A DNA stretch of 64,000 nucleotides from Acidiphilium sp. PA. GTDB taxonomy: Bacteria; Pseudomonadota; Alphaproteobacteria; Acetobacterales; Acetobacteraceae. The notes below the pieces were generated by a model. That model made no database searches, had not been told where the DNA came from, and was given only the letters and a program-made list of their open reading frames with translations. Below, piece by piece: positions 33,551 through 48,148 of this stretch. The translations under genes and the position numbers were made by a program. Each line of letters begins with the position of its first letter. Position 1 is the stretch's first letter. The DNA is taken from the NCBI RefSeq assembly GCF_026191915.1, contig NZ_JAIMBY010000014.1, positions 1 to 64,000 on the forward strand, in the 5' to 3' direction.

Positions 33551-33627
33551 CGGAGCGTAGCGCAGCCTGGTAGCGCATCAGTCTGGGGGACTGGGGGTCG
33601 TGGGTTCGAATCCCGCCGCTCCGACCA
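33551..33627 (+). tRNA. tRNA-Pro(GGG), integration target
   Basis: A 77-nt tRNA. The acceptor CGGAGCG pairs with CGCTCCG, the discriminator is A, CCA is encoded, and the T-loop is GTTCGAATC. The loop CTGGGGG has anticodon GGG. Its 3' 48 bases (33580-33627) are duplicated at 48101-48148, marking it as the attachment site of the mobile element; the gene is left intact. Confidence 0.97.
33580..33627 (+). repeat. attL, 48-bp direct repeat in tRNA-Pro
   Basis: This is the 3' part of tRNA-Pro from the anticodon stem to CCA, identical over all 48 bases to 48101-48148. The bases just outside differ (C versus A before, A versus T after), which fixes the ends. Confidence 0.95.
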
Positions 33628-33675
33628 ATGTTTGCAAGGGGTTAAGGTCCATCCCGCCAATCGCCGGACCGCAGC

Positions 33676-33682
33676 GGATACC
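33676..33682 (+). promoter_or_regulatory. Candidate integrase arm-type site, left end
   Basis: GCGGATACC matches the repeats at 47979-47987 and 48000-48008 near the right end. It lies 49 bp inside attL. Confidence 0.4.
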
Positions 33683-33770
33683 GGTTGGAACACACTCCGA
33701 CCCGGCGGATTGCTTAGACTTCACGTTTCCGTGATCGCCCGATGGGATGACCAGCAGGTGATGTCGGCAG

Positions 33771-33957
33771 TGACGCCAGTGACGGCATATGACGTCACTT
33801 TCCTATAGAAGCCCCTATACCATTATGTAAAAAAATAGTTGTTAATGGGGTGTAGTGGTGTCATTGGCGTCATCATTGCGAAACCTGCCGATAAAATCAC
33901 GATGTTTGGAATGACGCCACTGTGACGCCACTCTAAAAAATGCCGTCACTGCCGTCA
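33771..33957. repeat. Iteron-like cluster TGACGNCA, eight copies
   Basis: Copies on either strand are at 33771, 33780, 33790, 33865, 33912, 33923, 33941 and 33950. The central base varies among C, G and T. An AT-rich patch lies between the third and fourth copies. Clusters like this are typical of replication origins or of repressor-operator arrays. Confidence 0.5.
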
Positions 33958-34345
33958 TTCGGCGCGATCGGATCGAAACCACGAAAACCCCGTGCCCGGC
34001 GCAACCGGATAGGCGTTGTCTGCCGCCGCCCGCCTGGTGCAGGATACCGCCCATGCGCTTGCTCTCGCTTGCGGGACGGAGCTTACCGATAGCTGTATCG
34101 GGGAGCGCGGCGGTGTGGCCGCACACTCGTCGCGCCAACCGGCTTCAGCGTCCCCTATCCGCCCGTCATGCCGATGCAGTGGCGCTGCGCATGCGCCTTG
34201 TGGTAGCGACCCGGTGGGTGTCAGCGGAACGCCGCCGATGCCGAGAAATACCACCTTCGCCGCCGCACCGATTTGCCATCGGGCGGCGGCGTTTTTCACC
34301 CCTCGATGTCGCGATGCCGATGCCCGGCTTTACCGCCGGCGCGAA

Positions 34346-34645
34346 TCAGTCGGTGATCGGCTTGATCAATCCCAACCGCACGGCCGCTGCTCGATCACGC
34401 CATCCCAGATGCTCGCCACGGCTGATCCTGCCGACCAGATCGGCCGCCATCGCCTCATCGCCCGCATAGGCCGCTACGGCTTCACGGTGCCGGCGCAGTG
34501 CCGACCTCGCCCTGATCCGGTGAGACGGTGGTGCCATCGGGTTCTCGGCAATGACCACCAACCGCGCCACGGTATCAGCGTCAAGCATGCCGCGCTCTAT
34601 TTCCAGCCGATCAACCGCTGATAAATCAGGCTGCATGGCGTTCAT
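34346..34645 (-). CDS. Hypothetical protein of the element
   Basis: A 99-residue, helix-rich protein (LDADTVARLVVIAENPMAPP, then HRIRARSALRRHREAVAAY). No domain is recognised. It is the last minus-strand gene at the left end, separated from the terminase-like gene by a 520-bp gap. Codon use looks coding in this frame, and the competing plus-strand frames look like its shadow. Confidence 0.45.
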   Translation of the reverse strand: MNAMQPDLSAVDRLEIERGMLDADTVARLVVIAENPMAPPSHRIRARSALRRHREAVAAYAGDEAMAADLVGRISRGEHLGWRDRAAAVRLGLIKPITD

Positions 34646-35165
34646 CGTCGTGCTGCATCATCGCTCGATCCTATTCAAGCCGGCACCCTTGCACTGATAA
34701 CTCACCGTTATTCTCGCGCACAAGAGCACACTGGTATCAATCCGGCACGCCGAACCATGCGGGTTGTCGCATATATGCGGCAGGACGGTTTAGAGCGTGC
34801 TGTGCGCCGTCCGGCTTTTCAGGTCTCGCGATGGCAACCACTATGCTTCGGCCTACCACATTGCGATTTCTGGCCAGCCATCCGCAAAATTTTCAGGGTC
34901 CTTCCCACCCGGCACCCGGTCACGGGTAACGCGCGACCGCGTCACATCGCTAGCGCCATAATTTTCAAATTTGGTCCGGTTGGGATTTCGCGCAAAGTCA
35001 GAAATGTTGCGATTTTTGTTAGGAATAAGCGACACTTAACCGAAAATAGCAGCGGCGTTGCCAACCATCCCCACACAAAACCGTCAGAAACCCCCGCTTA
35101 AAGCGGGTTCCGGTGGTCCGGTTGGTGGTCCGGTTGGTGCCGCTACGCCGCTGGTGTAGGTGCTG
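34646..35165. other. Gap within the element, no supported gene
   Basis: This stretch is lower in GC than its surroundings. Small frames exist on both strands (for example 60 codons at 34853-35035, minus) but none has a ribosome-binding site or similarity I can support. Near 35108-35135 the unit GGTCCGGTTGGT is repeated directly. Confidence 0.5.
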
Positions 35166-35762
35166 CTACTCCGGCGCGGCCGGCGGCGCGTCGAAATCGA
35201 GCTGGGCGAGTTCGAGGCAAGCCTCCCTGATCTCGCGCGTGAGGATGATGTGGACCACGCCAGCGTCGCCCTCGGCTGCCAGTTCGGCGGCGATGCGGTC
35301 GGGGATGTTGAACATCCGGTCCCGAAACGCGCGGGCGATGCGGAAACCTACCTGCCGTTCGGCCGCGGCTGACACCAATTCACCCCGCTCAAGCTGAAGT
35401 TTGATCGCCGCCAATTCCGCCTCGGTTTCCGCAAGCCGCGCCCGGTGGTGCGACCATCGCTTACGCGAGTCCGCAAGCGCCTCGATACCGCCCGGCTCTG
35501 TTCCATCCGCTGCTGCTGGTGCCGCCGCTGGTGCGGTTTGCACCGCCTCGCCAGCACTAGCGTCATGCCGGCCGCCCACGGCAGGGTCAGTGTGCTCGAC
35601 CCATTCTCGATCGGCCAGGGCGGGATCAATGGACCATACCCGCCCCGCGCGCTCTGCGCTGATCCGGTTGGCGGCGATCGCCTTGCTGACGGCGCGTTCA
35701 CTGCACCCGCGATGGCGCGCATATTCCGCAACATTCATCATTTCAGTGGATCCAATCGTCAA
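35166..35762 (-). CDS. Nu1-like small terminase / DNA-packaging protein candidate
   Basis: A 198-residue protein. The N-terminal helix-turn-helix (NVAEYARHRGCSERAVSKAI, residues 10-29) is like that of Nu1 and other DNA-packaging small subunits. It is followed by an Ala-rich linker, a coiled coil at about 105-135 (LAETEAELAAIKLQLERGEL) and a C-terminal segment with FRIARAFRDRMFNIPDRIAA, a stretch common in Nu1-type proteins. No large terminase is encoded nearby, so it may redirect a helper phage's terminase to element DNA. It overlaps the upstream gene by 20 bases. Confidence 0.7.
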   Translation of the reverse strand: MTIGSTEMMNVAEYARHRGCSERAVSKAIAANRISAERAGRVWSIDPALADREWVEHTDPAVGGRHDASAGEAVQTAPAAAPAAADGTEPGGIEALADSRKRWSHHRARLAETEAELAAIKLQLERGELVSAAAERQVGFRIARAFRDRMFNIPDRIAAELAAEGDAGVVHIILTREIREACLELAQLDFDAPPAAPE

Positions 35763-36201
35763 TAATTTCGAGCTGTCCCGGCACGCTCACGATGACGGGC
35801 ATGCGTTTGATGAAAAACTGCGACCAAAGCCGCATTAGGGGCTGCTCGCACTCTATGACCACAGCCCGGCCAAACTGCCGCGCAACCTCGATCACCCCGG
35901 CGGCTTTCGCGTCATGCAGCACCACGGCCGCAACCCGCCCGAACGCCCTCAGATCACGCGCCGCCCGCCATCCGTCAGGCCCGGCGCCGTCGCAATCGCA
36001 GAGTAGCGCCACGCCAGGCGCGCGGCCGGACACCATCGGCCACATATCGTCGAGGGTGCGGTCTGGCCCGACGATCTCCTGATAGATGATCAGCCCAGCC
36101 TCGGCAGCGTCGATTAGCTTCAGGCGTTCGGGAGCCCCGACATAGGCTTGCCGGTAGCTGGCGATGACGCGGGCCTGATCCTCCGCCCGGTCCGGGGTCA
36201 T
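35743..36201 (-). CDS. Hypothetical alpha/beta protein of the element (1)
   Basis: A 152-residue protein of unknown function. Its pattern of alternating strands and helices (GVALLCDCDGAGPDGWRAAR, then VAAVVLHDAKAAGVIEVARQ, then AVVIECEQPLMRLW) resembles the product of 36503-36871. The two may be diverged relatives. It overlaps both neighbours, so it belongs to the late-gene-like operon. Confidence 0.6.
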   Translation of the reverse strand: MTPDRAEDQARVIASYRQAYVGAPERLKLIDAAEAGLIIYQEIVGPDRTLDDMWPMVSGRAPGVALLCDCDGAGPDGWRAARDLRAFGRVAAVVLHDAKAAGVIEVARQFGRAVVIECEQPLMRLWSQFFIKRMPVIVSVPGQLEIIDDWIH

Positions 36202-36506
36202 TTCCGCACCATCCTGACCACGGTTGCCCGCCGGCGCACCGCCTCTGCCGCCCTACGCCGCCTCTGCGCTGCCCGGCGTCGTGCTGCGCTGGTCTCGCCT
36301 ATCGCCTGCCGGATGAGGCGCACGGCACGCGCCGCGCTGTACGCCACCCGGACCGGAAACCATGGCTTCGCCGGGCTGGTCGATGCTGCCCAGGCGCGGG
36401 CTTCGCTGGCCTTCACCCGCATCAGATCGCCGGCGGCGAACGCGCGGCCGTCATGGTTGATGGTGAAGCCCCGGCGCACCCTCAGCCACCGCCACCGCCC
36501 GCTCAC
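36198..36506 (-). CDS. Hypothetical basic protein of the element
   Basis: A 102-residue, Arg-rich protein beginning at GTG 36506, which overlaps the preceding stop (GTGA). It has FTINHDGRAFAAGDLMRV near the N-terminus, suggesting a small beta fold. The C-terminus is a very basic tail (RRRAAQRRRRAAEAVRRR) that could bind nucleic acid. No family is recognised. Confidence 0.5.
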   Translation of the reverse strand: MSGRWRWLRVRRGFTINHDGRAFAAGDLMRVKASEARAWAASTSPAKPWFPVRVAYSAARAVRLIRQAIGETSAARRRAAQRRRRAAEAVRRRATVVRMVRK

Positions 36507-36871
36507 GCCGCGCTCCGCGTGGCCTGCCCAAACCCGCCGATGTCCCGCTGGTTCGCAGCCACCAGCACTCGCCACGCTCGCGCATCCGTTTCTGCGCATG
36601 CGATCACCAGCACGCTATCGCCGGCCTTCCCCATTTGGGCAGCGTACCGCCCGATCGCAGCATCCGGCGCGCGGACCGTCACGACGATGGACGCGGCGCG
36701 AATTGCAGCAATCGCCGCCGGCCAGCGGCCAGGGTCCGGCGTGTTGCGAGCATCGATCACCACCACCCTGCCGGCTCGATCTGCGGTAGCGAGCACCGCA
36801 GGCTTATCACCGGCCCGTACCGCAATCAGCGTCACCCCGGCCAGCGTGGCGGCGGTTGCGACCGCGCTCAC
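36503..36871 (-). CDS. Hypothetical alpha/beta protein of the element (2)
   Basis: A 122-residue protein starting at GTG 36871, in a GTGA overlap with the gene before it. Successive strand-helix units read GRVVVIDARNTPDPGRW, ASIVVTVRAPDAAIGRYAAQ and SVLVIACAETDARAWRVLV. The spacing is like that in the 35743-36201 product. Function unknown. Confidence 0.55.
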   Translation of the reverse strand: MSAVATAATLAGVTLIAVRAGDKPAVLATADRAGRVVVIDARNTPDPGRWPAAIAAIRAASIVVTVRAPDAAIGRYAAQMGKAGDSVLVIACAETDARAWRVLVAANQRDIGGFGQATRSAA

Positions 36872-37083
36872 GACGCCCTCAGCGCGGTTTTCATCACCAC
36901 CTTCTCCGGCGGCTTCGGACGCGGCCGTGCCGGGCGATGGCCGGGGGTTTCGTCTGCGGGCTCGATCTGTGCCGACCACGCTTTTGCGAGTTCCGGCGTA
37001 AGGTCGAGAATCGCCCCGCCGGTGAATGTGCCTGCGCTTCCCATCGCCAAGGTGAAACCGCCGCGGACTCGATAAAGTGCCAT
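36868..37083 (-). CDS. Small protein downstream of the capsid gene
   Basis: A 71-residue protein. ATG 37083 is preceded by GGAG at a good distance. The N-terminus (MALYRVRGGFTLAMGSAGTF) is beta-like and the tail is Pro- and Arg-rich. Its position 47 bp after the capsid gene suggests a head-related or decoration role, but there is no similarity to confirm that. Confidence 0.55.
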   Translation of the reverse strand: MALYRVRGGFTLAMGSAGTFTGGAILDLTPELAKAWSAQIEPADETPGHRPARPRPKPPEKVVMKTALRAS

Positions 37084-37129
37084 GTTATACTCCAACAAAA
37101 AGCGGCCCGGCTTTCACCGGGCACGCGGT

Positions 37130-38266
37130 TTACGAGGCGTCGGTGATGGCCGCGAAGCTGACCGGGTGGCGCGGCGCGATATCGACCGTTGCCATCACCC
37201 TCAATTCCAGTCCGCCGGATGAAAAGCCCGCGCCGTATGGGTTGGTCGCAAGTTCGATCACACCCCATTCCCCGATCAACAAATCCGGCCAGTTCCCGAA
37301 CAAAACCGCTGACAGGCCGGTGCCGGTGCCTTTGGTCAGCCCGCTCGGCACGTTTGTGGAGCGGGCGACTGGCAGGCCGTTCAGCGCACCAGGCGCGCGG
37401 CCGGGCTTTCCGGTGGGGTCCGGGAAGTATGACCAGACCGGCCGGTTGGCGCTATCCACCAGCCCGCGCATTTCCTTCACGATCGCCGGCGTGGTCAGGT
37501 AAGCCATGTCATCGGTATCGACATTTGCCGCCGTCACGGTTTCCTCGAGCGCCTCGAGCGCGGCCAGCGTGATCGGCCCGCCGTTGGTGCCGAGCGCCAC
37601 CGTGCCGATGCCGCTGGTGCCCAGGATGCCGAGTGGTTGCCCGTTGCTGCCGGTGCCGGCGATCGCCGCGATATCGATCGCCTGCGCAACGCCCCGCGCC
37701 AGATCACGCATCAAAAACGCCTCCGCTTCGGGGCTGATCGAGACGATAAATTGGCGTGTGGCCTGCGCGTAACCCGCAACGGTTTTCGGGGTCATCCGAA
37801 CCTGATCCATCGCGGACGCCTCGCTCTCGGTGATGTCCGAACCTTCGGGGCTGATCCAGGCTGCCGCCGCACCGGTGCCGAGGCGCGGGATGGCGACATT
37901 GCCCACCAGGCCGGGCAGGACGGTCGCGCCAAGCTGCAGCACGCGGCTCTTACCGCGCAAGGCTGCGATGAAACCGCCCGGCGCAAACTCCTGCCCAACC
38001 AATGCAGCACCAGTGGTTGAGGCGACGTACGGCGCGGCCGGCGAATACGTTTGGGCCGGAGCCGTGCCGCCACCCGGATAGGCGCGCCCGAGCATGCTTG
38101 ATGGCATGAAAAACCCAGTGCGCTTCATGTTTTTCGCGATCGAGTCCGAAATTTCAAACTCGATGCCGGTTTGCTTTTTTTTGTCGAGCATGCCGGCCAG
38201 CAACCGCTGCACGCTGTATGCGTTGCGCTCGCGGGTCGAAAGATCGGGGTAAAGTGAGTCGGGCAT
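37130..38266 (-). CDS. HK97-type phage major capsid protein
   Basis: A 378-residue protein. The N-terminal arm is helical and charged; the HK97 fold begins near residue 85 (GAALVGQEFAPGGFIAALRG). Diagnostic parts are VLPGLVGNVAIPRL, WISPEGSDI, the P-domain helix (AQATRQFIVSISPEAEAFLM) and GSGNGQPLGIL-like loops (GTGSNGQPLGILGTSG). The scaffold-like delta domain is short, and no separate protease gene is present. It would form the icosahedral head of the element or replace the helper's capsid. Confidence 0.88.
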   Translation of the reverse strand: MPDSLYPDLSTRERNAYSVQRLLAGMLDKKKQTGIEFEISDSIAKNMKRTGFFMPSSMLGRAYPGGGTAPAQTYSPAAPYVASTTGAALVGQEFAPGGFIAALRGKSRVLQLGATVLPGLVGNVAIPRLGTGAAAAWISPEGSDITESEASAMDQVRMTPKTVAGYAQATRQFIVSISPEAEAFLMRDLARGVAQAIDIAAIAGTGSNGQPLGILGTSGIGTVALGTNGGPITLAALEALEETVTAANVDTDDMAYLTTPAIVKEMRGLVDSANRPVWSYFPDPTGKPGRAPGALNGLPVARSTNVPSGLTKGTGTGLSAVLFGNWPDLLIGEWGVIELATNPYGAGFSSGGLELRVMATVDIAPRHPVSFAAITDAS

Positions 38267-38308
38267 TGTCGTGTCCTATGTCAAAAGTTGTAGGCCGCGC
38301 CTAAACAT

Positions 38309-38644
38309 TTAGGCCGCGCGTGGTGGGGGTTCGTCGTCGGGGTTGAATGGTGGCGCGCTGCGGTTTGTGATCAAAACGCGAGGCTTGCCCTGCCAGACTT
38401 TTCCAGCGTTCCAGCCTTTCCCCCGCCATGGTTCCGGTGAGTTCCATGCGTGAGGCCAAGGCGTGGGGCGCCGAAACGGGATCACGTTGCCTGCATCTGC
38501 GACCGCTTCGGGCTTCGCCGGCGCCGGCGCATCCGCCTGCCCATCGGGCATCGTATCGGCAATGATCTCATCGAGCTCGGCATCGAGCCGGGTTTGTTGC
38601 TCACGCCGCTCCCGCACCTGAATTTCCAGCCAATCCTCTGACAT
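38309..38644 (-). CDS. Hypothetical protein between tape measure and capsid genes
   Basis: A 111-residue hydrophilic protein. A charged helix (LEIQVRERREQQTRLDAELD) is at residues 6-25, and a Pro- and Trp-rich C-terminal part has RPTPWPHAWNSPEPWRG. Its ATG shares one base with the tape-measure stop. A head-scaffold or chaperone role is possible from position, but nothing in the sequence proves it. Confidence 0.55.
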   Translation of the reverse strand: MSEDWLEIQVRERREQQTRLDAELDEIIADTMPDGQADAPAPAKPEAVADAGNVIPFRRPTPWPHAWNSPEPWRGKGWNAGKVWQGKPRVLITNRSAPPFNPDDEPPPRAA

Positions 38645-41172
38645 CAGCCGTAGCCAGTCCCGTTCATTGCCATCAGGCCGCCATCGCGCTTCTGGCGGAT
38701 CATCTCATGCTGGATCGCCGCGCGGATTGCCGTGTGCAGCCCGGCCGCGCTGTTCTGCGGATCGCCGGTGACGGTGCCATCGCTGTGGACATGGGTGTTG
38801 ATGTTGAAGGTGTGGTTGCCACCACCCCCACCTTTCATGCTGACCGGGATCGAGCGGCCATCGGGGAGGGGAACGTAGGCTTCCGGCATCCGGCCTTCGC
38901 CGTACATCGCGACCTGCGGGCTGCTGGCAACGCCGCCACTGGAATAGGCGTGCAATGGCATCGGGCCCATCGGGGTCATGATGCCGCCGTTGGCGAAGCC
39001 GAAAAATTTGCCGATGGTGCCGAGTACCGGGCCGATGTCAGACGCCGCGCTCATCAGCGAACTGCCCTTGCTGAACAATGAGCCGATGCCGGTGATCGTG
39101 TTGATGAAGCCAAGCCCCGATTTCGCCGCGCCGAGAGCGTCGCCTAGGATCGAGCCTGAGCCGGTGGGGCTCGGCATTGTCGGTTGCTGGCCACCACCCC
39201 AGCCGATGTTGCCCATCGAGCCGCTAAACGCACTGCCGCCGCTGCCGCCCTTGGTGCCGCCGCTGAACATGTCGGCAATACTGCCCGCGCCACCGAGGCC
39301 CTTTAAGAGCGAACCGAGGCCGGTGGACAGCGGTGAGACAATGGCCTGCTGGACCACCATCGAGGTCATGTCCTTGAAGATGCTGGCCGCGAAGCTGCGG
39401 AATGTCACCCGGCCGCCCTCGAGCGCGGTGGTGAGTTGATCGCTCATGCCGGACCAGGTTTTGGCCCAAATTTGCTTGATGTCATTGCTGGCCGTGCTGA
39501 CGGTGTGGACGGTTTTTTTAACGCTTTCATGCATGGGCGTGGTTGCCGGTGCGCCCGTCACTGAGGTGTTGGCGATGGCCGCGACATTGCCGGTCATGGC
39601 GGCCGTGATCGCCGGAGCCATCGCGGGATATTTCGCGATCTCCTTGCGCGCCCATGCCTCGGTCGCAAGAGCATCAGCAAGCTGGCGATGCGACAACGCC
39701 GCCGCGGTGGCGTGACTGCTGTCGGCCTGCAGCGTTGCGATCTGGTTTTGCACCTCCGCATTCTGGGTGCGCAAGATCGTGTTGAAGCGGTCCGCCGCGC
39801 TCACCGCGCCCGATCCAGAGGCGTCCCGCAACGTCGCGACGTGATCGCGGATCGCCGCGGTATGCTGGTGCAGATCGGAGGTTCCGCGCGCGGCGTGTTT
39901 CTGCGTTGCCGCATAGCTGTCGATCGCCGCCGATTGCTGTTGCGCGTAGACGCCCCGCGCCGCCGCCATCGATTGATTGCCGATCTGCTCGATCTGAAGG
40001 CGGTGCAGGCGATCTTGCAGCAAGGTCGTATTGCCGCCGCCGAACCGGCTCATCACACCTCGATCCGTGATCTGGTGTTTCAGCGATGCGATCTGGTCGG
40101 ACAGGGTGGTGGTGCGACCGATGCTTTCGAGCGCGTCGACCGCGCCGATCGCCTCGTTGCGGACTTCGTGCAGGGCTTCGATCAGGTAGCCCAGGTTGCG
40201 CGGCGCGTCGGTGCCGAGGGAGTGATAAAGGTCGTTTGCGACGGCGCGTTCTGCTTGCTCTTTGTGCCCCTGCTTTTCCAGGGTGGCGATGTACTCGTAT
40301 TGGGCGAGGTCGAGGAAGTGATATTCATGGTTCGCCTTGAGCGCCCACTTGGCAACGCCATCGCCCATCTTTGCGAAGTCCGCGACAACCTTTGTCGCTT
40401 TCTCGCCAGACACCCGGGCGAACTCGACGGCCGCGCGGGTCACGTCCTGCAGGGTGGCGCCGGTGAACTGACCGGTGCGGATCAGGTCATTGAGCGCGGC
40501 GCGAGCCATCAGCACGCCGCCGGGAATCTGGCGGCCGATCGTCTCCGCCATCGTGTTGAACTGGCCCTCGGTGATGCCGGCGACATTGCCAGTAAGCTGC
40601 ATGCCGCGGGCGAACCGGGCCGATTGCATCTCACCCAGCACCATCCCGGCCCCGACCGCCGCCACTTCGGCTGCCAAGCCACCGAGCGCGACACTCGCGA
40701 CGCCTGCGGAGGCAATGACTTCGGAGAGGTTTAGCTGTTCGGCCTCCACCATGAGCGAGCCGCCGAACCGGCTGTAGTTGCCCATGATCGCGACCTCGTG
40801 AAAGAGCACGATCAGCTCCCGCAAAGAGCGCCCCGAGGTGAGCATTTTCTTGAAGCCCATTTCCGCGTGGTGCGCCGCCTTGGTGACGCCAGTGCCCATC
40901 GCCGCCGCTGCCAGTTCCGCGTCACGCATCGCGCCGGTGACCGGTCCCAGCGCATCGGTGAGGCCAAGTTGGGCATTGCGTGCGGCCAGGATTTCGGTTT
41001 TCGAATAGGCCATCGACTCGGCGTGCTTGACGGTCTGATCAACCGCGCGCCGCTGGGCTTTGCTTAGTTCGACGGTCGAAAGGTCCAGTTTACCAATCTC
41101 GGCTCGCAGGGCTGCAACCTGCGATGTGCCGGTGGCATGGGCGGAGATGATGACTTCTGCGGTTTCAACCAT
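38644..41172 (-). CDS. Phage tail tape-measure protein
   Basis: An 842-residue protein. The N-terminus has VETAEVIISAHATGTSQVAA and heptad-like helices typical of tape measures. Hydrophobic segments lie near 140-180 (VIASAGVASVALGGLAAEVA). Long helical Ala/Gln-rich stretches follow. The C-terminal 130 residues are lambda-family-like, with FANGGIMTPMGPMPL, a Gly-rich linker and YGEGRMPEAYVPLPDGRSIP. In phages this protein sets tail length and helps DNA entry. No other tail gene is present in the element. It overlaps the gene before it by eight bases. Confidence 0.85.
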   Translation of the reverse strand: MVETAEVIISAHATGTSQVAALRAEIGKLDLSTVELSKAQRRAVDQTVKHAESMAYSKTEILAARNAQLGLTDALGPVTGAMRDAELAAAAMGTGVTKAAHHAEMGFKKMLTSGRSLRELIVLFHEVAIMGNYSRFGGSLMVEAEQLNLSEVIASAGVASVALGGLAAEVAAVGAGMVLGEMQSARFARGMQLTGNVAGITEGQFNTMAETIGRQIPGGVLMARAALNDLIRTGQFTGATLQDVTRAAVEFARVSGEKATKVVADFAKMGDGVAKWALKANHEYHFLDLAQYEYIATLEKQGHKEQAERAVANDLYHSLGTDAPRNLGYLIEALHEVRNEAIGAVDALESIGRTTTLSDQIASLKHQITDRGVMSRFGGGNTTLLQDRLHRLQIEQIGNQSMAAARGVYAQQQSAAIDSYAATQKHAARGTSDLHQHTAAIRDHVATLRDASGSGAVSAADRFNTILRTQNAEVQNQIATLQADSSHATAAALSHRQLADALATEAWARKEIAKYPAMAPAITAAMTGNVAAIANTSVTGAPATTPMHESVKKTVHTVSTASNDIKQIWAKTWSGMSDQLTTALEGGRVTFRSFAASIFKDMTSMVVQQAIVSPLSTGLGSLLKGLGGAGSIADMFSGGTKGGSGGSAFSGSMGNIGWGGGQQPTMPSPTGSGSILGDALGAAKSGLGFINTITGIGSLFSKGSSLMSAASDIGPVLGTIGKFFGFANGGIMTPMGPMPLHAYSSGGVASSPQVAMYGEGRMPEAYVPLPDGRSIPVSMKGGGGGNHTFNINTHVHSDGTVTGDPQNSAAGLHTAIRAAIQHEMIRQKRDGGLMAMNGTGYG

Positions 41173-41515
41173 GGATCGTGTTCTCCGTTGGAAATTTCAG
41201 CACGTTTCGGCTGGCGCGTTCGGCGGCTTCGGTCTCGCGATCGGCCAGGACCTCGTCGATCGCGGGATGCGGTGGAAGCAGGTCCGCAACATCGGCGGCG
41301 ATCTGTGCGGTTCGAAACGGGTTGGCCGGATCGATCGAGCGGCGCACCATCAGGCTGGTGATGGCGATGCGCTGTTGTTCTTCCGTGATGGCGGCCAGTT
41401 CGGCGCGCAAGCGGCTGATCTGGCGTTTGATGAGACCAGCGCGTGCGCGGCAAAGCTGGCGGGCGGCGGCCAGCATTGCGCGGAGTTCCTGCGGATCAAG
41501 TCCGGGCTCGATCAC
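41165..41515 (-). CDS. Hypothetical protein between VirE-type and tape-measure genes
   Basis: A 116-residue, mostly helical protein with a coiled-coil-like segment (KRQISRLRAELAAITEEQQR, residues 30-49) and a hydrophilic tail. It overlaps the VirE-type gene by ATGA and the tape-measure gene by eight bases. Its position just before the tape measure is that of tail assembly chaperones in phages, but no similarity is visible. Confidence 0.55.
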   Translation of the reverse strand: MIEPGLDPQELRAMLAAARQLCRARAGLIKRQISRLRAELAAITEEQQRIAITSLMVRRSIDPANPFRTAQIAADVADLLPPHPAIDEVLADRETEAAERASRNVLKFPTENTIHG

Positions 41516-42969
41516 GTCCGCGACTCCCTTATCCAGAATCGCTTTTTTCCGTTGCGGCTCGGTTCAAATCCCATCTGCGAAAGAATTGCGGTGATCCGGC
41601 GCGTGTGGCTGGTGCCCAAGTCCTTCAGCGGAATATGCAGCGCCTCTACCGAAATCTCATGCACACTCACGCGGTCTCGGCATTCGACAAACCTGTCGAC
41701 GGTCTCGCTCCATGCGTCGACCTCCCGCCTCGCCTCTTGCTCGTCGGCGATATGCTCGCGCTCAAAATCCGCCGCCGGCCAATAGGGTTCGCCCGCCTTG
41801 AATCGATGCACCGCCTCGGCGAATAGCTGGTCCCGCGCCTGCCGCAGTCCGTCGATATCGATTGATTTTACAGCCACCGGCCAGAAACGACGATTGCCGG
41901 TGGCGTCTCTCAGATATTGCGCCTCGTTCGTGGTCAGCACGAATACGCACTGCCGCGGCTCTTTGATCGTCCTGCGGCCATAGGCCGGTCGATAATCCTC
42001 AACCCGGCGCGTCAGGAAAGCCTTGAGCAGGTTGGCGTCAGCCTTGTCGAGCGCGGCCATTTCCGAAATTTCGACCAGCCACTTGTCCCGGATAAACCCG
42101 GAAAGGTCTTTACCTCCATTGCGCAAGTCCGGCATCTGATCGCCGCAGAATTCGCCAGCCAGCACAGTGCAGATCGATGATTTCAGGATGCCCTGCGGCC
42201 CCTCGAGCACCATCGCATAATCAAGCTGGCAACCCGGCCGCATGATGCGCGCCACCATGCCCATCAGGAACATTTCACCGACACGCTCGTTATAGATGGA
42301 CGCCTCTGTGCCGAGGTATTCAGACAGCCAGAACGCAAGCCGGGGGTTGCCGTCCCATTTTAGGCCGGTGAGGTAGTCCCGGACCGGGTGAAACGCCTGC
42401 TCATGCGCGCGCAAGTCGATCGCATCGGACAGGATGTCCGCGCTCATCCGTGGCAGGCCGGCGCGCTGGATGTGCTCGAGCACCGCCGCAAGGTGGTGGT
42501 CAGCGAATGAGCAGGGCTCGGTCACGGCGCGCAATGTTGTCGACGGTACCGGCCGCATGAGCATGACTTCGCGGCGCATCTCATTATAGGCCACCAGATC
42601 GCGAAGCGCCGGGTCACGGCGCATCGCAATCAGCGCATTCGTGAGGTTGTTGCGGGGTTCGTTAGTGAGGTTAGTCTGGCAGTCCCGCAACCAATCCGGC
42701 GCCGGCGTACTGCGCGACGTGGCTTCGATCTTTGACCAGGCGCGCCGGAGAGATTCGCCGCCCGCCGCTTGCGCGCGGAGGATGTATGCAGAGGTGCGCT
42801 CATTTTTTCGCAAGGTCTCGATCGTCTCATCGAGCGTGCGGCCTTCACGATAGGCGATGCCCATGGCGCGGAATGCAATCTTTGCCGGGGACATCGGCGC
42901 GGACGCCTGCCGCACCAGATCGTCATCATCGAATTCGTGGTCGAGAATTTCGGCGGCGTTCAAGTCCAT
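41512..42969 (-). CDS. VirE-type (PF05272-like) P-loop replication protein
   Basis: A 485-residue protein. An N-terminal helical region is followed by the VirE/D5-like ATPase core from about residue 190 (FHPVRDYLTGLKWDGNPRL). Walker A is LEGPQGILKSS (255-265) and Walker B is WLVEISEMAAL. A sensor-like FVLTTNEAQYLRD and an arginine-finger-like TGNRRFWPV follow. Such proteins pair with small primases in phages and satellites and are likely replicative helicases. Its ATG shares a base with the primase stop. Confidence 0.82.
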   Translation of the reverse strand: MDLNAAEILDHEFDDDDLVRQASAPMSPAKIAFRAMGIAYREGRTLDETIETLRKNERTSAYILRAQAAGGESLRRAWSKIEATSRSTPAPDWLRDCQTNLTNEPRNNLTNALIAMRRDPALRDLVAYNEMRREVMLMRPVPSTTLRAVTEPCSFADHHLAAVLEHIQRAGLPRMSADILSDAIDLRAHEQAFHPVRDYLTGLKWDGNPRLAFWLSEYLGTEASIYNERVGEMFLMGMVARIMRPGCQLDYAMVLEGPQGILKSSICTVLAGEFCGDQMPDLRNGGKDLSGFIRDKWLVEISEMAALDKADANLLKAFLTRRVEDYRPAYGRRTIKEPRQCVFVLTTNEAQYLRDATGNRRFWPVAVKSIDIDGLRQARDQLFAEAVHRFKAGEPYWPAADFEREHIADEQEARREVDAWSETVDRFVECRDRVSVHEISVEALHIPLKDLGTSHTRRITAILSQMGFEPSRNGKKRFWIRESRT

Positions 42970-43841
42970 CAGGCGGCCTCGCCCCGCTCGCTGCGAGCCA
43001 TGAGCACGTCATTGAAGTCGGTGCCGGCGGTTTGCGGTTTGATGATGCGAACCTCCCGGCCCTGCCGCTTCCAGCGTCGAGCAGCGGCCTCGGCAGCGCG
43101 CAATCCGGGGCCGTCAGGATCGGCGGCGATCGTCACTCGGCGCACCAGATCAGGCAGATCAAGCGAGTGCTCGAGGTTGCCCGCCGATACCGATGACCAT
43201 GCCGGCAACCCGGTCAGAATTCCCGCGCTGGCAGCGGTTTCGATGCCCTCGGCGATGAGCAGATCGGGCGAAGCAGGGGCGAGGCGGACCGCACCGCCTG
43301 CGACGATGCCGAGCGACGCCTTGACCGGCTCGACATTCCCCTTGCGGCCGTCCGGGGTAAGAAACGTCCTATGAATTGCCTGAGGCGTGCCGTCAGTGCC
43401 CACGATCAGGGCGAGCATTGCGTCAAGCTGCCGCTTCGATGGGTGCCAGGTGTCGGGGCGGTACCGGATCGAGGTCGAGCCCATGATCGCAGCGATGCCG
43501 CGCATAGCGAGGTATCGGCCAACCGGGTCATCCGGGTTCGGTGCCACCGCCCCGCACCAGGCGCGCCTTGCACGCTCCACGCGGGCCGCATCATGGGCGG
43601 CGCGATCTGCGTCATGCCGGGGTTCCTGTTGCGCTTGAGCAGGCGGCGCGCCACCGATCTGAGCGAAAATGCCGGCAGGGCCATCCGGCAGATTGCACGA
43701 TGAGCACCATAGGAGCGGTTGCCCATTGCGGCCCGTCGAAACCTTGAACGCCTCGCGATAGCCGCAGTCCGGGCAATCGCCGCGGAAGTCCCGGCCGGCG
43801 CGGTGCAGGTTCAACCGCTGCGCAACAATCTCCGGGGTCAT
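42969..43841 (-). CDS. Toprim-domain DNA primase
   Basis: A 290-residue protein. The N-terminal zinc-binding element has CPDCGY and WCSSC near residues 23-48. The Toprim domain at about 185-275 has the catalytic Glu in LLIAEGIETAASA and the DPD metal site in VTIAADPDGPGLR. ATG 43841 is chosen because it opens the conserved MTPEIVAQRLNL; an upstream extension in frame is Arg-rich and unlikely. With the VirE-type protein it would allow autonomous replication after excision. Confidence 0.82.
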   Translation of the reverse strand: MTPEIVAQRLNLHRAGRDFRGDCPDCGYREAFKVSTGRNGQPLLWCSSCNLPDGPAGIFAQIGGAPPAQAQQEPRHDADRAAHDAARVERARRAWCGAVAPNPDDPVGRYLAMRGIAAIMGSTSIRYRPDTWHPSKRQLDAMLALIVGTDGTPQAIHRTFLTPDGRKGNVEPVKASLGIVAGGAVRLAPASPDLLIAEGIETAASAGILTGLPAWSSVSAGNLEHSLDLPDLVRRVTIAADPDGPGLRAAEAAARRWKRQGREVRIIKPQTAGTDFNDVLMARSERGEAA

Positions 43842-43922
43842 CGCGCGCTCGGTGCGGGAGCCGTGACAGCCCCCGCACGCTCGCCTAACGTTGCGGTCGC
43901 AACACCTGCAACGGAGAGTGAT

Positions 43923-44144
43923 ATGGATGATTTGACGCGCACGCACCTATTAGCACAAGCGATAGTTCTGCGAATTTGTTTCCAGCAGATCCTTGAGATT
44001 AAAAAAATCTCACCGATCGATCTGCGAGAAACGATCACGGAGGCCTCGATGGAAGCAATCACTTTGTCGATGCCTCCGGGGTCAGATTACCATCACCTGT
44101 CCGAGCAGGTCGTGCGACAAATAGAATCCCTGCTTGGCGGCTGA
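43923..44144 (+). CDS. Small plus-strand protein, only one in the element
   Basis: A 73-residue protein of unknown function, predicted helical (THLLAQAIVLRICFQQILEI). It has a good ribosome-binding site (GGAGAG, five bases before ATG 43923). Its last 86 bases overlap the end of the minus-strand gene at 44059-44265, so the two would form an antisense pair. It is the only plus-strand candidate in the element. Confidence 0.4.
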   Translation: MDDLTRTHLLAQAIVLRICFQQILEIKKISPIDLRETITEASMEAITLSMPPGSDYHHLSEQVVRQIESLLGG

Positions 44145-44265
44145 CGGCATTCACAACAACGTCCCGGACCGCCGCATTAATTGATGCCTTGTTGATAGCG
44201 GATTGGTCCTGCCGCACGGCCTCAATTTCTTCCCGAACAATGCGGCGGACTTCGGCTTCGGTCAT
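44059..44265 (-). CDS. Hypothetical small protein of the element
   Basis: A 68-residue protein, N-terminally helical and acidic (MTEAEVRRIVREEIEAVRQD). A perfect GGAGG precedes ATG 44265, and its start overlaps the preceding stop by ATGA. Function unknown. Confidence 0.5.
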   Translation of the reverse strand: MTEAEVRRIVREEIEAVRQDQSAINKASINAAVRDVVVNAVSRQAGILFVARPARTGDGNLTPEASTK

Positions 44266-44519
44266 GCTGCCCTCCAAAGAATCGGCACCTGTTTGTCGCC
44301 GCCGGTTGCGGCGAGCATGGCCGGCGTGATCCGCTGGTAATCCATCAGGCGTCGGGTGATTTCCTTGCGGCAATTGAACGCGACCACGAGTTCGACCAGA
44401 AATTCCTCGATGGCGCGCGGTCCGAGCGATGCCAGATGGGCAGCGCCGCGCTGTATTGCCGGATCGGGTCGGTTGGGATTTTGGTTGACGCGGGAAGGTC
44501 GATTCGGGTATTCGGACAT
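44262..44519 (-). CDS. Hypothetical small protein of the element
   Basis: An 85-residue protein. The N-terminus is Pro- and Asn-rich, then comes a helical part (LASLGPRAIEEFLVELVVAF). It is coupled to the next gene by ATGA overlap. No family is recognised. Confidence 0.5.
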   Translation of the reverse strand: MSEYPNRPSRVNQNPNRPDPAIQRGAAHLASLGPRAIEEFLVELVVAFNCRKEITRRLMDYQRITPAMLAATGGDKQVPILWRAA

Positions 44520-44580
44520 TCTGGGACTTTCGGATATCGGGGCGCGGCCTGCGGGGGCTGCGCCTCATCTATTTTCGGGG

Positions 44581-44883
44581 TCAGGCGGCCAGCGGCTGTT
44601 TCATCCGGGCGGCCAGCCACCCATCGAGATCGGCCTTGCGGTAGATGTACCGGCGCGGCGTGATCCAGACGCGGGCAGGCCCATCGCCGGCGGCGTCCAG
44701 GCGTTCAAGGGTCCGCTTGCAGACACCAAGGTAAGCCGCAGCGCCCGCGCCGTCGAAATTTTCCCGCATCGCAGGTTCGGCAGCGGCTGGTTTCGTGGCG
44801 GGCGCATCGGTAGGCCGCGCGGCGCGTGACACGATTTCAGCAAGAACCCTGTCGGCCAGTTGGGCAATCGGATCATTCGTCAT
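44581..44883 (-). CDS. AlpA/excisionase-like helix-turn-helix protein
   Basis: A 100-residue protein. An N-terminal helical region is followed by a MerR-like excisionase winged helix at about 45-95: GAGAAAYLGVCKRTLERLDA, then ITPRRYIYRKADLDGWLAAR. This is the pattern of AlpA and Xis-type DNA-binding proteins, which control integrase or direct excision. AGGGG precedes ATG 44883. It is the best candidate for the element's master switch. Confidence 0.7.
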   Translation of the reverse strand: MTNDPIAQLADRVLAEIVSRAARPTDAPATKPAAAEPAMRENFDGAGAAAYLGVCKRTLERLDAAGDGPARVWITPRRYIYRKADLDGWLAARMKQPLAA

Positions 44884-44947
44884 CGTGAACCCCTGAGCGA
44901 TGTAATCGCGACTAATTGCGACACCGGGAGTTTGTGCGATCTGGGAC

Positions 44948-45655
44948 CTACCCGTCTCGGTCAGATTTCCGCTTTTCGAGTTTCTGACCTTTTTGGGTGT
45001 TCCGACTTTCAAGCCACTCCCTGATCATGCCGGCGGTGATCGGGAGCGCCCTATTTCCGGTCCGCTCTTGGGTGACGCCGCACGCCGCCAACAGATGCAC
45101 CAAGACTGAAACCCGCCTCGATCCGGCCGCGCTGGTCCGGGCATCGCGTCCGATTGATCGAATCGCGGGATCGATGACGAAGCTCAAAGCGTCCTCCGCG
45201 ATGATCTGCCACGCGGGCGGGGCGGTTGGTGCCCGCAATCCGTATTCGAGCAATTCCAGGTCGGTGCGCAGACTCGCTAAAATCGCCATCACACCCGGAA
45301 ACGGAAGCACCGCCCGATCACCTTCCGGCATTGCGGTCAATTCATTGATCTGCCGGCGAAGGGTGAGCGCGGCAGCGCGCGCGGCCTTCACCGTTTTGCC
45401 GACGCGATCAATCGCCTCGATCTCGGCAGCAAGATCACCCGTCATGTAGTGGTGACGGACAACCGCGGCGAAATACTGGATTGATTCGATGCGCGATTGC
45501 GCCGGCGGGTGTTTCCCGAACCATGCCACAACATCCGCTTCGGATGGCGCGAACGCTTCCACCAGATGCCACTCGCGAGCCGTCATCCGCACCGTCGCGC
45601 GCTGCGAAGCGGGAGACGGGGGGTTGCCCCGTTCTCCCTTGTGTTGCGCCGTCAC
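44948..45655 (-). CDS. Hypothetical protein of the element
   Basis: A 235-residue protein with a mostly helical prediction; LVEAFAPSEADVVAWFGKHP and the long helix IEAIDRVGKTVKAARAAALT stand out. No recognised domain is present. It is preceded by an ATGA-coupled gene in the early operon. Confidence 0.55.
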   Translation of the reverse strand: MTAQHKGERGNPPSPASQRATVRMTAREWHLVEAFAPSEADVVAWFGKHPPAQSRIESIQYFAAVVRHHYMTGDLAAEIEAIDRVGKTVKAARAAALTLRRQINELTAMPEGDRAVLPFPGVMAILASLRTDLELLEYGLRAPTAPPAWQIIAEDALSFVIDPAIRSIGRDARTSAAGSRRVSVLVHLLAACGVTQERTGNRALPITAGMIREWLESRNTQKGQKLEKRKSDRDG

Positions 45656-46059
45656 GCCGCCATCGCCTTTACGAGCCGATCACGTGCCAGGCGCGCTAGA
45701 TCGCCAAGCGCCTCGACTGCATGCCCGTCGATTTCGAGCCCGGCCGCCTTCTTGCCAGCCAGCCCGGTCGCCAGCCCGGCCAAGCCATCGAGGTCATCCC
45801 TGACGGCGCGGATGTCGTCCGGATCGATGGTCCGCCACTGATCGGCCGGCGCCGGCTCAGAGACCTCGCGGTGCGGGGAAAACTCGATGCCCTTCTCAAC
45901 CTGATCGACAATCAACCGAGCGAGCAGGTCGATTGCGGTGCCGGCAATCGGTTTGTTTTCGCTGATCTCCCGCGCGGCGATGTCGCGGAGGATGCCCGCA
46001 AGTTCACCAATCTGGTAGAGTAGATCGAACATGTCGGCAGGGATTGAATGGCGGGTCAT
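45652..46059 (-). CDS. Hypothetical protein of the element
   Basis: A 135-residue helical protein starting MTRHSIPADMFDLLYQIGEL. ATG 46059 overlaps the preceding stop (ATGA), and GAGGG lies upstream. Most of its length alternates Leu/Ala-rich helices, for example LDGLAGLATGLAGKKAAGLE. Function unknown. Confidence 0.55.
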   Translation of the reverse strand: MTRHSIPADMFDLLYQIGELAGILRDIAAREISENKPIAGTAIDLLARLIVDQVEKGIEFSPHREVSEPAPADQWRTIDPDDIRAVRDDLDGLAGLATGLAGKKAAGLEIDGHAVEALGDLARLARDRLVKAMAA

Positions 46060-46457
46060 GACATGGCCCTCGCATCCCGCACCAGCATCGCCACCAGCTG
46101 CTCGTTGATGCAACCGTGCTGCTCCGGTTCACCGATCTGCGAATCCCATAGACCAAGGCTCCGCGCCACCGCCGCGAAGCCGGCAAGCGTGGTGATGCGG
46201 TGGCTGGTGATCTCTGTGGCAAGGGCGTGTTGCTCGTCTTGAATGGGATCGGTCACGGCGTCGCGAGCATCATCGTCAGGAATGTGGTTTTCGCCACCCG
46301 GGTAGAAGGAGAGATAGTGCCGCTCATTGGCATCGAACCGGGCGCACAGGGCGATCAGTTCGGCATCGGCTGCGGCGGCTTGCGAAGTTGAAACCGACAC
46401 GGCCAGGGCGGCAGCGGTTCCTGCGACGAGGTTGGCAATGGCATCGCGGCGGTTCAT
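46056..46457 (-). CDS. Hypothetical protein with signal-like N-terminus
   Basis: A 133-residue protein. Residues 1-31 (MNRRDAIANLVAGTAAALAV and following) look like a Tat or Sec signal, with twin Arg and a hydrophobic core. The rest is soluble with CARFDANERHYLSFYPGG. Function unknown. It is ATGA-coupled on both sides. Confidence 0.55.
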   Translation of the reverse strand: MNRRDAIANLVAGTAAALAVSVSTSQAAAADAELIALCARFDANERHYLSFYPGGENHIPDDDARDAVTDPIQDEQHALATEITSHRITTLAGFAAVARSLGLWDSQIGEPEQHGCINEQLVAMLVRDARAMS

Positions 46458-46645
46458 CGCACCGCCTCCGCGAATACGGCCCGCATCGCCTGTGTTGCCA
46501 CGGCCGCGATGATCCGGCGTTCGCTCGGGGTCGATCCGAGCGCGGCCAGGTCGTGCGCGGCCGCCTTGGCTTGCGCGGCGATATCGATCAGGCGCGGCGA
46601 GTTGCCACTGGCAACGGTTTTTGTGCTAGACACATTTTCGGTCAT
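46454..46645 (-). CDS. Small hypothetical protein, first of the early operon
   Basis: A 63-residue, Ala-rich helical protein (DIAAQAKAAAHDLAALGSTP). GAGGGG precedes ATG 46645. It starts a row of four genes with ATGA overlaps that continues to 44948. Confidence 0.5.
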   Translation of the reverse strand: MTENVSSTKTVASGNSPRLIDIAAQAKAAAHDLAALGSTPSERRIIAAVATQAMRAVFAEAVR

Positions 46646-46745
46646 CGTATTGTCCCCTCAGGACCATTTTCCGAGGCCATGCCCGGTGGTGTTACAGCAC
46701 CATCGGGCCACCCCTCTGCCGGCATCCGGCCGGCGCGGCATCTCC

Positions 46746-47957
46746 CTATTCGGCTTTCCTTTTCCGCTTTGGGTCGATCTCGATAATCTCCGCCTGCCGG
46801 CCACCGCCAAGCATGGCAGCGATCTTTCCGCCCATTCGATCGGCGGCCGCCTTGGCGGGATCAGGCGCAAGGTGCGCATAGCGTTCTGTAGTCGCCGACT
46901 GGCGATGTCCTAGGAGCTTGCCCACAATGAACAGGGAGTCGCCGCCGGCCACGCCGACGCTGGCAAATGAATGCCGCAAATCGTGCAGATGGACGTCCTC
47001 GAGCCCGGCGGTGGCGCGGATTCGCTGCCATGGTTTCTGAGCGCCGACGAAGGGAGCACCAGCCCGATCGCCGGGCAGAACATACGGGCTTGCTGCTACG
47101 CGAGGCAGTCCGGCCAGCAGCTCGAGCGCGGGGGCGGACAAGAACAGGTTCTTCGCACCCGTCTTGCTTTCCGGCAGGCGCGCAATGCCGGTGTTGAGGT
47201 CGATCCAATCCCAACGGAGGGTCAGGATTTCGGAGAGCCGCGCGCCGGTGAAAAGCAGAAGCCGGATCAGCGATACCGAACGCCAATCTGCCAGGCCCGC
47301 GGTCTCGGCAGTCGCCAGGGCATCGCCAAGGCGCGCAAGTTCCTCTGCGCTCAGGAATCGCTCGCGGGATTTTTCCTTGTTCTTGTCTATGTGCCGGCAT
47401 GGGTTGGAATTATCAGGCCGCTCACCAACCCGCTCAGCCCATCCCATGATTGCCGACAAGAGCGCCAAGGCGCGGTTTGCCGCCACCGGCACGGCGCGCA
47501 TCGATGAATGAAACCGCGCCACATCCGCCTTACCGATGTCGACCAAGCGCAACCGGCCTAGCGCCGGCAGGATGTGCAGCCGGAGCAGCCTTTTATCCTC
47601 GGTCACAGTCCGCGGCTTTTTTTGGCCTTCCGCGTATTCCGTCATGTACCGGGCGGCGAACGCCTCCAAGGTTGGCGCGCTCCGCGCGGCGTTCCGCTCA
47701 GCGGCGGGGTCTTTCCCATCGCGGATGAGGCCGAGCAGCCGGACCGCTTCACGCCTCGCCCGTTCCGCGCTCCAATAGCCCGCCCCGTGCCGCCCGATGG
47801 TCAGGATGGTCTGGCGTCGCTTGATCCGGCATTTCAGGCAGTAGATCGCATCGCGCCCGCGATGGCGCACGCCGAACCCGCGCACACTGTCATCCCAGAA
47901 CACATCGCCGGGCTGCATTTTTTCGACCAGTTCGGCAGTGATGCGGCGGGTCGCCAT
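46746..47957 (-). CDS. int: Tyrosine recombinase (site-specific integrase)
   Basis: A 403-residue integrase. The N-terminal DUF4102-like arm-binding region spans 1-90, the core-binding SAM-like domain about 95-185, and the catalytic domain about 200-375. The catalytic set is complete: Arg240 (TGARLSE), Lys265, His325 and Arg328 (HDLRHSF), His351 (GHRQS) and Tyr360. It is transcribed away from the right end, with two 9-bp arm-like repeats just upstream. It should recombine the 48-bp tRNA-Pro repeat. Confidence 0.95.
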   Translation of the reverse strand: MATRRITAELVEKMQPGDVFWDDSVRGFGVRHRGRDAIYCLKCRIKRRQTILTIGRHGAGYWSAERARREAVRLLGLIRDGKDPAAERNAARSAPTLEAFAARYMTEYAEGQKKPRTVTEDKRLLRLHILPALGRLRLVDIGKADVARFHSSMRAVPVAANRALALLSAIMGWAERVGERPDNSNPCRHIDKNKEKSRERFLSAEELARLGDALATAETAGLADWRSVSLIRLLLFTGARLSEILTLRWDWIDLNTGIARLPESKTGAKNLFLSAPALELLAGLPRVAASPYVLPGDRAGAPFVGAQKPWQRIRATAGLEDVHLHDLRHSFASVGVAGGDSLFIVGKLLGHRQSATTERYAHLAPDPAKAAADRMGGKIAAMLGGGRQAEIIEIDPKRKRKAE

Positions 47958-47978
47958 GGCGCGGTCCTTTCAGCCGAT

Positions 47979-48008
47979 GGATACCACCGGACACTCTGCG
48001 GATACCAC
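47979..48008 (+). promoter_or_regulatory. Two candidate integrase arm-type sites, right end
   Basis: GGATACCAC occurs at 47979-47987 and 48000-48008, exactly 21 bp apart (two helical turns), between the integrase start and attR. A related GCGGATACC lies near attL. Confidence 0.5.
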
Positions 48009-48100
48009 GTCATGAAATTAAATCAACCGCATTGAAGCGACAACATCAAGAAAACCGCCATTTTTTCGTCGCATGTCGCCTCATGCCGCATCGCTATTCA

Positions 48101-48148
48101 AGTCTGGGGGACTGGGGGTCGTGGGTTCGAATCCCGCCGCTCCGACCA
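48101..48148 (+). repeat. attR, 48-bp direct repeat (tRNA-Pro fragment)
   Basis: This is an exact copy of 33580-33627. It contains only the 3' part of tRNA-Pro, so it is not a working tRNA. The stop codon of the next gene begins two bases further on. Confidence 0.95.

Follow-up and report, generated by a model that had tools for sequence, protein, structure and literature searches.

A 14.5-kb element inserted in a tRNA-Pro gene

We analysed a 64,000-nucleotide stretch of Acidiphilium sp. PA (contig NZ_JAIMBY010000014.1, positions 1 to 64,000, hereafter the window), in which a 14.5-kb element at 33580-48148 carries genes for a major capsid protein (MCP), a tail tape measure protein (TMP) and a small terminase (TerS) together with its own integrase and replication genes. 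An earlier note on this DNA had described it as a phage-satellite-like element flanked by exact 48-bp tRNA-Pro repeats. The repeats were recovered as exact direct copies, attL (33580..33627) and attR (48101..48148), the left one forming the 3′ part of the integration target, a tRNA-Pro(ggg) gene detected by ARAGORN (33551..33627, plus strand). The first gene outside the right repeat encodes a prolyl oligopeptidase (48150-50183). A congener (G006) provides the empty site: there, a tRNA-Pro gene identical over all 77 bp sits immediately ahead of a prolyl oligopeptidase gene that is 90% identical, indicating that the element is a clean insertion in tRNA-Pro with the tRNA gene rebuilt. At the same tRNA in another congener (G005; locus L147, 872-5879), ~5 kb of other DNA lies on the opposite side, between a MerR-type regulator gene and the tRNA.

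All assigned protein genes of the element lie on the minus strand. In the direction of transcription, they run from a tyrosine integrase (46746..47957, 403 aa; PF00589, Arm-DNA-bind_3) through g2-g5 to an AlpA/excisionase-like helix-turn-helix (HTH) protein (44581..44883, 100 aa; PF12728 (HTH_17), phrog_66), then past g7 and g8 to a DUF7146 + Toprim primase (42969..43841, 290 aa, or 325 aa from an upstream GTG; PF23639, PF13362 (Toprim_3), phrog_510), a VapE-type helicase/replication protein (41512..42969, 485 aa; PF05272, E 2e-73) and g11. The late genes follow: TMP (38644..41172, 842 aa; PF06791 (TMP_2), PF09718 (Tape_meas_lam_C)), g13, an HK97-fold MCP (37130..38266, 378 aa; PF05065 at E 5e-35, phrog_617, alignment, AlphaFold/Foldseek), g15, g16, g16b, g17, a Nu1-type TerS (35166..35741, 191 aa) and g20. 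The families named in the earlier note (integrase, AlpA-like, Toprim, VirE-type P-loop, tape measure and HK97 capsid) were all found again by Pfam and PHROG searches, and its Nu1-like call by PHROG only (phrog_57, E 1.9e-31), with no Pfam match.

Much of this gene set is tightly coupled. The primase, vapE, g11, tmp and g13 genes are joined by overlaps of 1-8 bp, g15, g16, g16b and g17 by 4-bp overlaps, and nu1 begins 1 bp past g17; the capsid gene is flanked by gaps of 42 bp (after g13) and 46 bp. The nearly unbroken chain of overlapping minus-strand genes that had been described is real in its overlaps, but it is interrupted by a 520-bp gap downstream of nu1 and shares the element with a plausible plus-strand open reading frame (ORF) of 73 aa (43923-44144), which lies opposite g8, between the primase gene and g7, and is possibly the sole gene on the other strand.

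Pfam and PHROG searches of the element ORFs found no large terminase (TerL), portal, protease, tail tube, baseplate, holin or lysin, in agreement with the earlier reading of the letters alone, and an HNH endonuclease was likewise without a match among these ORFs. Neither the MCP N-terminus nor any searched ORF holds a head maturation protease. No sense ORF with room for a large terminase or portal remains free in the element; a single unassigned ORF comes near that length, and it runs antisense to the tape measure gene. The element combines a specific attachment site and its own integrase, its own replication module and an AlpA-type regulator (called AlpA-like by HTH_17 only, a weak assignment), and a small genome of 14.5 kb with incomplete virion and lysis gene sets, all of which are traits of phage-inducible chromosomal islands (PICIs) in the broad sense.

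The capsid protein is a shortened HK97-type protein

The closest relatives of the MCP are encoded on prophage contigs of the same bacterial family (G432 and G370, 48-49% identity) and by IMG/VR phages L238-L240, with identities of 45-50% across the L240-type and G432 relatives. Among 80 IMG/VR relatives, 74 have an ORF uncut by a contig end, and all 74 of these extend 235-383 residues further at the N-terminus than the element MCP. In the L117 (G370) and L240 proteins, Pfam places an S78 protease within this extension. A stop codon just upstream of the element gene (381 codons from stop to stop) means that its MCP is without the S78 protease and without ~100 residues of linker or pro-region.

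We had considered that the MCP might correspond exactly to a mature capsid protein. This was dropped, as the Pfam domain and the solved R4C capsid chain both begin at residue 86, leaving ~85 pro- or N-arm residues ahead of the capsid core. An AlphaFold model (mean predicted local distance difference test score, pLDDT, 76) has the HK97 fold from about residue 96, and its Foldseek matches include the capsids of R4C (8gta), a gene transfer agent (GTA), SaPI1 and HK97. The protein keeps 62/78 strongly conserved positions, far above its overall identity of ~40%, and we read it as a constrained but specialised protein.

A close counterpart is Ccm of SaPIbov5, a cos-type Staphylococcus aureus pathogenicity island (SaPI). 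Ccm is a lone capsid homolog with a delta domain at residues 1-87, similar in length to the ~85 residues of the element MCP, and no protease has been identified in SaPIbov5; Ccm occupies pentamers of the helper procapsid, with the result that small isometric heads form in place of prolate ones, and by itself it forms no capsids (PMC8569155). Small heads are also made by the gram-negative island PmCI172, which likewise encodes an MCP homolog (PMC6092414). Like SaPIbov5 and PmCI172, the element has a single phage-derived HK97-type capsid homolog with no recognised protease (PMC8569155, PMC6092414), and it shares with Ccm the trait of a lone MCP homolog accompanied by neither a satellite protease nor a portal. 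It differs from both in adding a TMP and a Nu1-type TerS, in its DUF7146/Toprim and VapE replication genes, in its Acetobacteraceae host and in being known from genes alone. Since portal, protease and TerL are missing and the MCP is shortened, this protein probably joins the shells of a helper in the way of Ccm, and is less likely to build a capsid unaided.

The late genes point to one siphophage lineage

The TMP is complete, aligning with the TMP of phage L240 (IMGVR_UViG_3300031749_000034) over residues 3-841 at 45% identity. With the L239 protein as third sequence, 83 residues are unique to the element TMP and 77 to that of L240, near-equal counts that give no sign of decay. A suggestion that the element TMP is shorter than that of a helper was abandoned: at 842 residues it is 69 aa below L240 (911) but within 3 aa of L239 (845).

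Besides this matching TMP, phage L240 encodes a capsid protein of the same type and a relative of g15. The TerS is 35-37% identical to the genes at the Nu1 position of L242, L252 and L115, and the G432 prophage encodes Nu1, a GpA terminase, a lambda-type portal and a long ORF of the protease-MCP type. As the relatives of TMP, MCP, g15 and Nu1 all occur in phages of the L240/G432 type, these sequences point to an origin of the four genes in one siphophage lineage, whose closest members are L240, L238/239 and the G432 prophage. These phages hold the nearest TMP (45%), MCP (45-50%), g15 and Nu1, and differ from the element in having a GpA TerL, a lambda-family portal, an S78 protease-MCP fusion, a tail tube, a chaperone and the normal gene order.

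In the phage lineage, that order is TerS, TerL, portal, protease/MCP, small genes, tube, chaperone and TMP, whereas the element reads TMP, MCP, small genes and TerS along transcription. The late-gene order had been noted previously as unlike that of usual phages, and the comparison with the L240/G432 lineage bears this out. Deletion and block inversion both preserve order relative to transcription, which excludes a simple deletion derivative; several separate relocations or gene-by-gene captures would be needed to produce the arrangement. The outcome that the earlier note had named as speaking against a satellite, descent by deletion from a collinear full-length prophage, is not supported, as the element is not collinear with the phage lineage.

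Relatives of the element among islands and phages

The replication genes find their nearest relatives, at ~50% identity, in other VapE islands of Acetobacteraceae. VapE relatives (E <= 1e-60) occur in 49/299 Acetobacteraceae genomes, many of them in compact islands. The element shares with these islands its replication module and the accessory family of g3 (46056..46457, minus strand, 133 aa; 35-36% to proteins of L079 and L085), while the morphogenesis set is its own. Searches by MCP, TMP, VapE, Toprim, Nu1 and g5 retrieved no relative combining TMP, MCP and VapE.

Many of the family's compact islands resemble capsid-forming PICIs (cf-PICIs), forming a class with MCP, S78 protease, portal, AlpA and integrase, with or without TerL and HNH (loci L068, L069, L079, L086, L087, L118-L124 and L127, several without a recognisable TerL). 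Their genes run VapE/primase, (HNH, TerL), HTH, MCP, S78 protease, portal, AlpA and integrase. Two genomes, G028 (L068, L087) and G357 (L120, L121), each hold two related islands of this kind. Other VapE islands carry a large terminase with tail genes, namely a TMP and baseplate hub in L075 (2364-19088) and a lytic tail protein in L071 (1274-12083); the portions read showed neither capsid nor portal in these two, which thus hold a different incomplete selection of phage assembly genes. We found no open-licence paper linking Acetobacteraceae with phage satellites.

A helper-dependent satellite as the favoured explanation

Counterparts of all the late genes have been tested in other systems and the cf-PICI set is lacking, which makes a PICI-type satellite that edits packaging, head and tail of a GpA-type siphophage the most likely explanation; judged from its genes, the element is probably a phage satellite that depends on a helper and is broadly of PICI type. 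The earlier view of a helper-dependent satellite with its own TMP therefore remains the best reading, given the clean insertion, the island-type replication module, the intact and coupled genes and the permuted order. Its statement that the element supplies its capsid was too strong: the MCP gene is present, but portal, protease and TerL are not and the MCP is shortened.

The sequence shows the insertion, the gene content, the domain loss and the gene order; induction, packaging, small heads and chimeric tails are inferred, in the following scheme. When a siphophage with GpA terminase and protease-MCP (L240/G432 type) is active, the AlpA-like regulator would switch the element on, and the element would then excise and replicate with its own integrase, primase and VapE helicase. 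The Nu1-like TerS would steer the helper large terminase to satellite DNA, as some SaPIs encode a TerS that redirects packaging (PMC10690885). The shortened MCP would enter helper procapsids in the manner of Ccm, which would probably yield heads of reduced size to match the 14.5 kb, and the element TMP would replace the helper TMP in the tail. Portal, protease, TerL, tail tube, tail tip and lysis would come from the helper. More tentatively, and with appreciable doubt, the satellite may re-specify all three assembly steps of a single helper's virion, namely packaging (through TerS), head geometry (through the protease-less, shortened MCP mixed into helper shells) and tail (through TMP), with genes from the helper's own lineage, while the helper would still provide enzymes and connector.

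The tail step has its model in the PICI-like elements (PLEs) of Vibrio cholerae, whose TMPs replace the helper TMP and are required for transduction; putative tmp genes are also reported in some cf-PICIs (PMC12987554, Extended Data Fig. 10b). The element resembles PLEs in encoding a TMP for tails that would otherwise come from the helper (PMC12987554), and differs from them in having no recognised tail chaperone or baseplate hub. PLEs also alter the capsid of their helper by a different route (PMC10945586).

Several observations weigh against a satellite of this type, and some of them are shared by the view that the element is a decayed, rearranged prophage, in which most late genes were lost and debris remains. 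The MCP retains the fewest conserved positions in a comparison with 58 relatives (median 97%), and its terminal branch is the longest of 64 in the tree, so that relaxed selection could account for both; with a placement support of only 0.685, faster evolution of the MCP and a separate origin are indistinguishable. No tail assembly chaperone was recognised beside the TMP, where PLEs have one. The syntenic siblings for which the earlier note had recommended a search did not appear in family-wide scans (MCP in 397, VapE in 299 and TMP in 249 Acetobacteraceae genomes), in a TMP scan of 385 Alphaproteobacteria, or in one GTDB contig scan and six IMG/VR scans, pattern scans that miss distant relatives. 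The host genome (4.5 Mb, 86 contigs) holds no PF05876 (GpA terminase) and no second PF05065, and thus no matching resident helper. The single-lineage origin of the late genes and the absence of most structural genes would also suit prophage decay. However, the main ORFs are intact and tightly spaced, the TMP is complete with no excess substitutions, the att sites are intact, the gene order is permuted relative to the phage lineage, and an island-type replication module overlaps into the tmp operon, which together make decay an unlikely account.

The same genes could instead belong to a resident anti-phage island, with MCP, TMP and TerS acting as decoys that poison phage assembly and the element rarely or never packaged. 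Assembly can be disturbed by lone structural homologs; Ccm, by redirecting the capsid, suppresses its helper (PMC8569155), and defence directed at tail assembly is known (Tab, PMC10884400). Integrase, att sites and replication module nevertheless indicate mobility, a TerS makes most sense for packaging and PADLOC returned no matches, so we give this possibility little weight. A self-sufficient capsid-forming satellite needing only helper tails is very improbable. What defines such cf-PICIs is a complete set of head and packaging genes, including TerL, portal, protease and HNH (PMC10690885), and although the element shares with them the integrase, AlpA-like protein, primase, HK97 MCP and TerS, and cf-PICI-like islands are common in Acetobacteraceae, these four components were not found, a gene content that contradicts the cf-PICI reading. 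Its MCP is also only ~40% identical to the MCPs of cf-PICI-like islands and nearer to the phage fusion lineage. On the question of a connector, g15 and, weakly (E 0.005), g16b resemble small post-MCP phage proteins and would be possible small head genes.

The ingredients of the element are each known from other satellites (Ccm, PLE TMPs and SaPI TerS), and the combination of a lone MCP, a TMP and a TerS, which turned up nowhere else in these scans, looks new. Separate satellites are known to manipulate heads, packaging and, since 2026, tails; if this compact element is a helper-dependent satellite, with all three genes from one phage lineage, it would show that edits to head, packaging and tail can be stacked. 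It would also extend satellite-encoded tape measures to Acetobacteraceae and offer a simple genetic test of whether a protease-less capsid protein with a short pro-region redirects an HK97-type head.

Remaining genes, repeats and related islands

The other minus-strand ORFs are mostly orphans. Between the integrase and the AlpA-like gene lie g2 (46454..46645, 63 aa; 4-bp overlap with g3), g4 (45652..46059, 135 aa; 4-bp overlaps) and g5 (44948..45655, 212-235 aa), which has no family and no convincing relative in 200 genomes of Acetobacteraceae; these are followed further on by g7 (44262..44519, 85 aa) and g8 (44059..44265, 68 aa; 4-bp overlap with g7). Around the tmp gene, g11 (41165..41515, 116 aa), which shares 4 bp with vapE and 8 bp with tmp, and g13 (38309..38644, 111 aa; 1-bp overlap with tmp) lack a convincing family assignment, and nothing in the retrieved loci matches them. 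Downstream of the MCP, g15 (36868..37083, 71 aa) is 43-50% identical over 40 aa to small post-MCP proteins of L240 and L117, and g16b (36198..36506, 102 aa) has a short 44% match to another such protein of L240. The orphans g16 (36503..36871, 122 aa; 4-bp overlaps), g17 (35743..36201, 152 aa; no family, and a poor single-sequence model with pLDDT 43) and g20 (34346..34645, 99 aa) complete the set. PADLOC detected no defence genes among ten orphan proteins of the element, and a promoter scan found nothing.

The low-GC gap adjoining the small terminase gene contains three exact copies of TGGTCCGGTTGG, starting at 34972, 35114 and 35126 (34972-35137), one separate (34972-34983) and two in tandem (35114-35137). 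The window contains 21 matches to this motif where 6.2 are expected, an enrichment reached in 0/100 shuffles, and the repeats are candidate TerS binding (cosB-like) or origin sites.

Among the cf-PICI-like islands, L068, L120 and L124 have their integrase end beside similar flanks, with a YggT-like membrane protein and a folD-like gene, which suggests that these three share an integration site.

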